Virus record (IMG/VR): IMGVR_UViG_3300048694_000820
Location: 1 to 24,426 of that record
DNA from: a virus
Direction: 5' to 3' (one strand)
Length of the DNA: 24,426 nt
Shown: positions 2,681 to 10,593 of the stretch, piece after piece
Layout: each line of letters opens with the position of its first letter
Position numbering within the stretch: the stretch's first letter is position 1
The notes under the pieces: model-generated
The model's input: only the letters and a program-made list of their open reading frames with translations
Databases searched by the model: none
What the model was told of the DNA's origin: nothing
Translations under genes and position numbers: made by a program

Positions 2681-2782
2681 TCAAGTAACTTGTGGTTGCT
2701 TAGCCATATTCAGTTGTGCATTATGAAGGAGTTGCTCCTTCTTTGCCTTTTTTTTAAGATAACGAACGAAGTAAGTATTCAT
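2681..2782 (-). CDS. 33-aa basic micro-protein
   Basis: A short ORF, MNTYFVRYLKKKAKKEQ followed by LLHNAQLNMAKQPQVT. It has a very strong Shine-Dalgarno (AAAGGAGGTG) that lies inside the last codons of the DUF4278-like gene, and its ATG overlaps that gene's TGA as ATGA. It ends just before the terminator at 2645-2674. The basic cluster at residues 10-15 is the only notable property. I infer it is the second peptide of a riboswitch-controlled transcript. The function is unknown. Confidence 0.65.
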   Translation of the reverse strand: MNTYFVRYLKKKAKKEQLLHNAQLNMAKQPQVT

Positions 2783-2943
2783 TTCACACCTCCTTTAGTC
2801 TTCTCCATATGAAGTTTGTTTCCATTTTCATCAACGTAAAACATAGATCCACGGTAGATTTCTACATGTGGTTCGATCTTAAATGTTTGATTTGGGCGAT
2901 TTGCGGTGTCATATTCAACACCACGATATACGACTTTTGACAT
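2779..2943 (-). CDS. DUF4278-like small peptide (PirA-type?)
   Basis: A 54-aa peptide starting MSKVVYRGVEYDT. The YRGxxY element near the N-terminus is typical of the DUF4278 family of cyanobacterial and cyanophage small proteins. The start at 2943 has GGAGG 6-7 nt upstream. It is preceded by about 100 nt of GC-rich structured leader (2965-3062) resembling a glutamine riboswitch. From memory, small DUF4278 proteins of cyanobacteria include the PII-interacting regulator PirA, so a role in nitrogen metabolism of the infected cell is a reasonable inference. The family assignment rests on the short motif and context only. Confidence 0.75.
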   Translation of the reverse strand: MSKVVYRGVEYDTANRPNQTFKIEPHVEIYRGSMFYVDENGNKLHMEKTKGGVK

Positions 2944-2964
2944 TTAATTCCTCCAGAATGAGAT

Positions 2965-3062
2965 GTTTAATTCCCGTTCCTTTGGGCGGCGTTTCCGTTC
3001 GGCATTTGCGAATACCGAATGAACGAATTGCGTTCCGCGTCGTCCTACTTGCGTCCTATTCA
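2965..3062 (-). ncRNA. Candidate glutamine (glnA/Downstream-peptide class) riboswitch
   Basis: A GC-rich, highly structured leader lies between the stop of the 68-aa gene and the DUF4278-like peptide. On the minus strand it shows, in order, GGACGCAAGTAGG (3056-3044), GGAACGCA (3036-3029), CGTTCA (3025-3020), a long hairpin TTCGGTA...ATGCCGAA (3019-2998), CGGAAACGCCGCCC, and GGAACGGG (2980-2973). These boxes resemble the conserved core I associate with the glnA and Downstream-peptide glutamine aptamers, which sit upstream of short ORFs in marine cyanobacteria and phages. The boxes and stems are seen directly. The class and the ligand are from memory and untested. Confidence 0.7.
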
Positions 3063-3266
3063 GTTACACACTTTAACGAAATCCTTTCGGAGTTCTAATA
3101 GCAATCGGTCTTCTACTCTTTGAATTACTACATCGTCGTTTTTAACGATGTCCATTAGTTCCATCGCAGTGTCACAACTTACAGATACTTTAGATGTACT
3201 AATAAGTCGTGACGTTGAAATAGAGAGAAGTGGAACCCATGCTAAAAGCAAAAGTGCTTTAGACAT
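3060..3266 (-). CDS. Small secreted or membrane-anchored hypothetical protein
   Basis: A 68-aa protein with an N-terminal hydrophobic stretch (ALLLLAWVPLLSIS, residues 4-17) after MSK, which fits a signal peptide or anchor. A hydrophilic remainder follows, with many Val, Asp and Arg residues and two Cys. It lies upstream of the structured leader, and its TGA falls at the leader's edge. No function can be assigned. The region 3267-3356 upstream carries late-promoter-like and hairpin sequences. Confidence 0.6.
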   Translation of the reverse strand: MSKALLLLAWVPLLSISTSRLISTSKVSVSCDTAMELMDIVKNDDVVIQRVEDRLLLELRKDFVKVCN

Positions 3267-3323
3267 AGGATGAACGTTAGGGGACTAATATACCCCTATC
3301 CATTTTATATAGTCGAGTTTGTA

Positions 3324-10423: not shown

Positions 10424-10593
10424 TTTTGTTAAGAGAGTTAGATAAGAGTTCGGGGGGACGAACGATTATTGTTATGTTCCACAGCACCCTCCACTGTGGA
10501 TATGAGAGACGTAATTTATACACCCTATAGGTCTCGGTTAATGGGTGTTTAACAATGTTACAAATCCATTAAGGTTCGTAACATTTGTTTACC
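10424..10593 (-). promoter_or_regulatory. psbA 5' leader with three hairpins and no Shine-Dalgarno
   Basis: The transcribed leader of roughly 165 nt can form ATGTTAC...GTAACAT, CCACAG-TGGAGGGTG-CTGTGG and GTTCG-TCCCCC-CGAAC. The ATG is preceded by CTCTTAACAAAA, with no purine-rich SD. Conserved RNA motifs (PhotoRC-I and -II) are known ahead of photosystem genes in marine cyanobacteria and phages; whether this is one cannot be decided without a covariance search. Confidence 0.5.

Follow-up and report, generated by a model that had tools for sequence, protein, structure and literature searches.

Small protein genes within the aptamer loops of a predicted glutamine-I type riboswitch of cyanophages

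Does a GC-rich block upstream of a short open reading frame (ORF) in viral DNA belong to a glutamine riboswitch and, if so, to which kind, and where does the RNA begin and end? The block lies in the 24-kb virus record IMGVR_UViG_3300048694_000820 (24,426 nucleotides, henceforth referred to as 'the window'), which is of T4-like cyanophage character. The original prediction placed a glutamine-type riboswitch at positions 2965-3062, and much of its description was borne out: the block has a GC content of 0.51, a level reached by 2% of 98-nt windows, compared with 0.37 across the window, the boxes GGACGCAAGTAGG (3056-3044), GGAACGC (3036-3030) and CGTTCA (3025-3020) are all present on the minus strand, and a short ORF with the YRGVEY motif follows (2943-2779, minus strand). 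The predicted hairpin (3019-2998, minus strand) is also present, although it is not perfect, as one of its 9 base pairs is G-U. Given its composition, the block is of unexceptional folding stability (z = -0.46), so folding energy alone lends it no support. The RNA ahead of the small DUF4278-type gene is indeed of the glutamine-riboswitch type, namely of the glutamine-I (glnA, RF01739) kind, whereas the proposed Downstream-peptide/glutamine-II identity was rejected since RF01704 gave only 10.6 bits (E 4.7) against a gathering score of 33. RF01739 itself matched positions 3027-2971 with 27.5 bits (E 5.8e-4 in a 401-nt search), which is below its gathering score of 35; formally, therefore, the covariance-model check ended without the above-threshold match whose absence had been named as grounds for abandoning the prediction. 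We ascribe this score to a P2 with a gene-holding 205-nt loop and to a second module on P3, both beyond the span of the Rfam model. Identical boxes in identical order ahead of a YRG-type ORF were found in phages S-PM2, S-CREM1, S-CAM7, S-B68 and S-N03, and RF01739 scores of relatives ranged from 23.8 to 33.5 bits; because the box order and the ORF recur in phage relatives, the block goes beyond chance. The sole Rfam match in the window at the gathering threshold was a PhotoRC-II RNA (10464-10560, minus strand, 85.9 bits) immediately ahead of psbA (10423-9347, minus strand), and just after psbA lies a small ORF (9260-8820) resembling an HNH endonuclease.

The boxes GGACGCAAGTAGG and GGAACGC make up the 3' portion of an aptamer that lacks a 5' half in their vicinity. 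The matching 5' strand, CGUUCAUCCUAU, lies at 3276-3265 (minus strand), 220 nt upstream of the 3' part, and CGTTCATC occurs only once on the minus strand of the whole record. The originally predicted coordinates thus captured the 3' part of the element and missed both its 5' part, which extends to 3276, and a nested ORF at 3266-3060 (Table 1). The window element and its relatives form a three-way junction of P1, P2 and P3 with the conserved P1 CGUUC-GGAACG. In P2, positions 3270-3265 pair with 3059-3054, which places the A and U of the nested AUG inside the stem, with the final base of the UGA stop codon adjoining it. The window has AAA in J3/1, where most relatives and the consensus loop E have GAA, and AGUA is present in its J2/3. 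Past the stop codon of the nested ORF, the frame at 3060-3046 (minus strand) reads ATA GGA CGC AAG TAG (I G R K stop), comparable to the marine IIGRK ending, and this vestige suggests that the window form arose through an earlier stop codon. A short hairpin of GGGA/UCUC or GGGG/UCCC type seems to be located 3' of P1 in many relatives (window 2974-2956) and may be part of the expression platform.

Table 1. Coordinates of the nested element and adjoining features in the window
Feature	Position	Strand	Basis
Entire nested glutamine-I type element (303 nt), P1 to P1 plus the pocket-pair base	2974-3276	-	Parsed with 251 relatives
Sigma70-like promoter: TCGACT (3316-3311), 18-nt spacer, TATATT (3292-3287)	3287-3316	-	Sequence
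P1 5' strand CGUUC, partner 2979-2975	3272-3276	-	Nested topology
Outer P2 5' strand UCCUAU, including A and U of the nested AUG	3265-3270	-	Covariation across the ORF
Nested ORFa, 68 aa, MSKALLLLAWVPLLS...C31...C67-N, lacking a Shine-Dalgarno	3060-3266	-	Family dN/dS 0.31
Outer P2 3' strand AUAGGA	3054-3059	-	Covariation across the ORF
J2/3 core CGCAAGUA, loop-E strand AGUA (3049-3046), C3051-G2974 pair	3046-3053	-	C-G/G-C covariation in 252/252
P3 5' strand GGACGACG	3038-3045	-	Covaries with 2991-2984
Inner hairpin CGGAACG-CAAUU-CGUUCA, circularly permuted P1'	3020-3037	-	Base-pair probabilities, linker/core covariation
Inner P2b hairpin, short form (ORFb in this loop in many relatives)	2998-3019	-	Sequence, comparison
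Inner core CGGAAA, G2995-C3030 pair	2992-2997	-	Core-to-linker covariation
P3 3' strand CGCCGCCC	2984-2991	-	Covariation
J3/1 and P1 3' strand AAAGGAACG	2975-2983	-	Rfam match region, nested topology
Shine-Dalgarno GGAGGA of the DUF4278-type gene	2949-2954	-	Sequence
DUF4278-type small protein, 54 aa (MSKVVYRGVEYDT...)	2779-2943	-	Sub-threshold Pfam match, phrog_5049

For comparison, we parsed 252 distinct cyanophage elements from among the matches listed of pattern scans (henceforth referred to as the 'listed elements'); their class counts are not frequencies, and covariation counts refer to distinct sequences rather than independent events. In the window, neither repeat can form a P3 of its own, and the P3 strands pair between the repeats. 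Across the 252 listed elements, one terminal cross-repeat pair of P3 is T-A in 104, A-T in 88, G-C in 54 and otherwise in 6, and the other is A-T in 227, G-C in 11, C-G in 8 and otherwise in 6; each end of P3 is thus Watson-Crick in 246/252, whereas pairing within a repeat would leave A-A in 90, A-G in 42 and G-G in 12. When scans were preselected for an altered base, P3 strands ending in A met T in 88/91 cases and C-started strands met G in 7/8. Odd but perfectly complementary P3 strands occur in P-RSM4 (ATTCG/CGAAT) and S-TIM5 (AGTCG/CGACT), and many elements retain two A-C mismatches in P3. The core base x of ACGxAAGTA is complementary to the base after the final GGAACG, not to that after the nearer one, in all 252 listed elements (C-G in 180, G-C in 72), and this pair is intact in 178/178 listed elements that bear an ORF, where it spans 212-452 nt. 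Nested and linear pairing make different predictions in 79 informative elements, 68 of which fully fit the nested and none the linear scheme, and base-pair probabilities favour the nested pairings (0.73 and 0.75 versus 0.02; 74/74). Covariation also reaches across the ORFs: pairs 4 and 5 of P2b covary in 79/83 elements each (45 and 39 in shuffles) and pair 4 of P2a in 48/62 (27.5 in shuffles). A permuted P1', a P2b and a core-to-linker pair, the last present in 241/252 listed elements, belong to the inner module itself, which is without loop E. Since P1, the core pair and P3 all cross between the two box sets, the element is a single nested fold, and linear tandem aptamers were rejected on the grounds of the P3 and core-pair covariation between repeats; an intergenic ORF unrelated to the RNA was likewise rejected because of the P2 covariation and the fixed start and stop positions. 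As judged from these sequence comparisons, the architecture is almost certainly that of a glutamine-I type element with a small protein gene in the P2 loop and a P3 arm capped by a second aptamer-like module that is circularly permuted. Two variants were seen: one contig (L056, 6500-7000) seemingly contains three consecutive repeat units, with the first P3 strand (AGCCGACT) left without a partner, and another (L118) contains two separate box sets.

The positions of the nested ORFs are tightly constrained. All 224 start with an ATG located 9-13 nt from the start of CGTTCA. ORFa stops between 13 nt before and 10 nt after the end of P2, inside the core GGACGCAAGUAA (IIGRK*) in 41 cases, and ORFb stops at +14 or +17 in 111/115, such that the codons for its C-terminal DAKAD are formed by the core and the P3 strand; the UGA or UAA stop of ORFb is shared with J3/1. 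None of 109 ORFa copies is preceded by a Shine-Dalgarno sequence. The dN/dS values were 0.31 and 0.24 for the ORFa sets and 0.39 for the best-aligned ORFb set (0.75 for all ORFb, with saturation), and codon position 3 is the most variable in the nested ORFs, indicating that the best-conserved sets are under purifying selection. The window ORFa displays more nonsynonymous than synonymous codon changes relative to its nearest relatives (e.g. 9 versus 4), so the evidence for selection on this particular copy is weak. Profile comparison identifies ORFa and ORFb as homologues (94.6%, E 7e-8), and each contains two invariant cysteines. The window ORFa had no PHROG match at 0.01 (phrog_504 and phrog_6471 included); phrog_6471 was matched by 21/39 ORFa relatives and phrog_504 by 39/40 ORFb, and no Pfam or PDB relative of the nested protein was found. 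AlphaFold models of modest confidence (pLDDT 66 and 75) suggest a hydrophobic N-terminal helix followed by two helices (a helical hairpin), for which fold comparison returned no significant match, and the text of the P-HM2 paper contained no infection-time expression data for genes of the nested element. Overall, comparison across relatives shows that the fold is nested, that the nested ORFs are coding where they are best conserved, and that starts and stops overlap the aptamer.

The arrangement is found in viruses of marine and freshwater cyanobacteria. Scanning viral contigs for the 3' boxes revealed two loop classes, one short and one of ~190-230 nt that holds an ORF; S-PM2, S-CREM1, S-CAM7, S-B68 and S-N03 have a short hairpin loop where the window has ORFa. 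The 252 listed elements comprise 74 with hairpins in both loops, 69 with hairpin and ORFb, 63 with ORFa and hairpin and 46 with ORFa and ORFb, i.e. 132 with an ORF in one P2 loop and 46 with ORFs in both. A scan with the window ORF returned 249 relatives, of which 80 were kept: in 70 of these ORFa begins directly after CGTTCATCCT, 6 are cut by the contig end, and 4 have the ORF and have lost the riboswitch, from which it follows that the coupling of ORFa to the riboswitch is not obligatory. In these four contigs (L135, L136, L139 and L181, ~2430-2705) ORFa is intact and the aptamer absent downstream, and in the three checked (L135, L136 and L181) ORFa follows CAGTTCATCCT; by sequence, this is riboswitch decay with retention of the gene. 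Searching phage records with the window ORFa by tblastn gave no match. Cultured phages with the arrangement, in which the ORFs are annotated as hypothetical proteins, include P-SSM4, P-HM1, P-RSM4, S-TIM5, S-IOM18 with both ORFs, and an Rfam search of the ORF-bearing cultured phages reported no glutamine riboswitch. Near the composite element, manA RNAs of 184 and 142 bits were noted in P-SSM4 (L207, 1216-1401) and P-TIM40 (L211, 1903-2097), respectively. As a control, we considered ordinary phage aptamers matching a pattern that includes a P3 hairpin; of 116 distinct sequences, 114 contain a hairpin at P2, and both terminal P3 pairs are self-formed in 100. One contig (L455) has an ordinary single aptamer with ORFa in the P2 loop and a DUF4278-type ORF downstream; the Rfam search of this contig did not report the aptamer. 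Among 84,980 genomes the composite was present in only 5 contigs (Prochlorococcus single cells, MAG or draft assemblies), which we infer to be phage DNA and not of host origin. Contigs L345, L346 and L347, filed as Nonlabens and Euryarchaeota TMED129 assemblies, carry the cyanophage composite and are most likely misbinned or contaminating phage DNA.

The sigma70-like promoter of the window ends 10 nt ahead of P1 and a -10-like box ends 7-10 nt ahead of CGTTCA in about 176/233 relatives listed (~three quarters), so that the transcript probably starts at P1 with the nested AUG near its 5' end. Downstream, an ORF with a Y-x-G motif follows in 222/230 relatives listed, and has a Shine-Dalgarno sequence in 219/230. 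In the window, the predicted DUF4278 identity of this ORF agrees with its Y-R-G-V-x-Y-D motif and a phrog_5049 match (2.6e-8), whereas the Pfam score was below the cut-off (PF14105, 19.9 bits, E 9e-4, gathering score 25.3). Glutamine-I and -II RNAs are known ON switches ahead of DUF4278-type genes, which glutamine turns on (PMC6316151, PMC6698751). Taken as a whole, a nested-gene glutamine-I type riboswitch with reciprocal output is the explanation that we consider rather probable. The prediction that glutamine is the ligand is a good deal firmer, and whether switching is reciprocal we regard as evenly balanced. Because the gene is inside the sensor's own hairpin loop, sensor folding and reading of the nested gene should exclude each other, and we infer this mutual exclusion from the AUG near the 5' end, the absence of a Shine-Dalgarno sequence ahead of ORFa and the known glutamine-ON switches. 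Glutamine would stabilise P1, P2 and P3, and the bound fold would conceal the start codon(s) of the nested ORF(s) within P2 and, by analogy with the known ON switches, permit DUF4278 translation. At low glutamine, ribosomes would load onto the nested ORF(s) close to the 5' end and hold the aptamer open, melting P2 (plus P3 for ORFb), and DUF4278 would stay off. A single transcript would then yield the nested protein(s) at low and the DUF4278 protein at high glutamine. In its fullest form, which may hold or fail with equal chance, the proposal is of a metabolite switch in which sensor RNA and controlled small proteins share nucleotides: the bound fold would hide the nested starts and open DUF4278, nested translation would dissolve the sensor, and unit and gene would have undergone a joint duplication, followed by new pairing into the nested RNA of two modules, with the result that conserved aptamer bases also encode a conserved C-terminus (DAKAD, IIGRK).

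The strongest competitor, which we hold to be unlikely but to deserve serious weight, is that the P2 loop merely tolerates a passenger ORF that is translated regardless of glutamine, the riboswitch acting on DUF4278 only. The free alternation of short hairpins and ORFs in the loops and the persistence of ORFa in the four relatives with a decayed riboswitch fit such a passenger, but a start codon within or adjacent to the P2 stem in every nested ORF, the end of ORFb inside the aptamer core in nearly all copies and the lack of a Shine-Dalgarno sequence ahead of ORFa do not, and translation requires the ribosome to melt P2 and, in the case of ORFb, P3 as well. More doubtful still is an autoregulatory leader in which the nested small protein, or its translation, takes the place of glutamine as the effector. 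In its favour are core bases that in part deviate from RF01739, the absence of loop E from the inner module and the case of metE, in which translating an ORF within the aptamer reduces MetE while B12 sensing persists (PMC11260477); however, the pair between the core base and the post-P1 base is kept in all listed elements, and the 74 that are ORF-free have the same RNA. Tandem glnA RNAs have been described (PMC2864571; 157 doublets in PMC9481103), yet two ordinary tandem glutamine-I aptamers that have an unrelated ORF in between or alongside are highly improbable here, as own-repeat P3 pairing fails in most elements where cross pairing holds, the core pair cross-matches throughout, and this reading is already refuted for these elements. 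Chance resemblance is negligible despite the sub-gathering score and the non-significant folding z-score of the window, because hundreds of phage relatives with covarying helices exclude it and the S-CREM1 match to RF01739 reaches 44.0 bits over the whole element (PMC9964418).

Riboswitches are regarded as leaders that do not code for protein, whereas the reading favoured here, a nested-gene glutamine-I type riboswitch, puts conserved protein genes inside aptamer loops and lets their codons share bases with the core, in many cyanophages including the cultured P-SSM4, P-HM1, P-RSM4 and S-TIM5. If glutamine sensing is true, the element links phage infection to host nitrogen status. Standard RNA annotation does not see the nested-gene arrangement, and the element shows why covariance models miss its kind. 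Glutamine riboswitches of cyanophages (PMC9964418) and tandem glnA RNAs (PMC2864571, PMC9481103) were already known; the S-CREM1 report describes one 99-nt RF01739 match of 44.0 bits (PMC9964418), which fits the nested unit. In the open-access literature, outside which most subscription papers lie, we found no description of genes nested in aptamer loops or of a shared P3.

The closest known system is the glutamine-I RNA (RF01739), with which the element shares P1 CGUUC/GGAACG, the A of J1/2, P2, the core CGxAAGUA with loop-E AGUA, J3/1 xAAG, a G-C or C-G pair between the core base and the base after P1, and a DUF4278-type gene downstream. The crystallised glutamine-I aptamer has the order AAGUA-AG...CU-GAAG (PMC5393176), which is that of the outer unit, and by our own reading of its sequence the core/post-P1 pair is G-C. 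The phage elements differ in their ~200-nt P2 loop with a gene and the permuted second module on the P3 arm, and they are below the Rfam threshold or undetected. Published tandem doublets (PMC9481103) similarly have two conserved box sets in a row, but were treated as separate aptamers; the phage elements lack the own P1 and own P3 per aptamer of a tandem pseudo-cooperative arrangement, and phage doublets of this kind can be one nested fold and not two aptamers. Glutamine-II RNAs (RF01704) have in common the CGUUCA and CGCA boxes and a small DUF4278-type ORF downstream, and differ in that the model scores only 10.6 bits here and that a small ORF lies inside the phage RNA too, not just downstream. 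Group I introns house ORFs in peripheral loops, a comparable case of a protein gene in the loop of a structured RNA; here, by contrast, nothing points to splicing or to an endonuclease domain, and the host RNA is a sensor. Experimental precedent for an effect of translation inside an aptamer on a downstream gene comes from the B12 aptamer of M. tuberculosis metE, where mutation of the start codon of the ORF within it raised MetE more than 10-fold (PMC11260477). That ORF is of 16-codon scale, has its own Shine-Dalgarno sequence and was reported in one species, whereas in the phages, where translation is predicted from sequence, conserved protein families fill the loops and their starts and stops are locked to stem and core positions.
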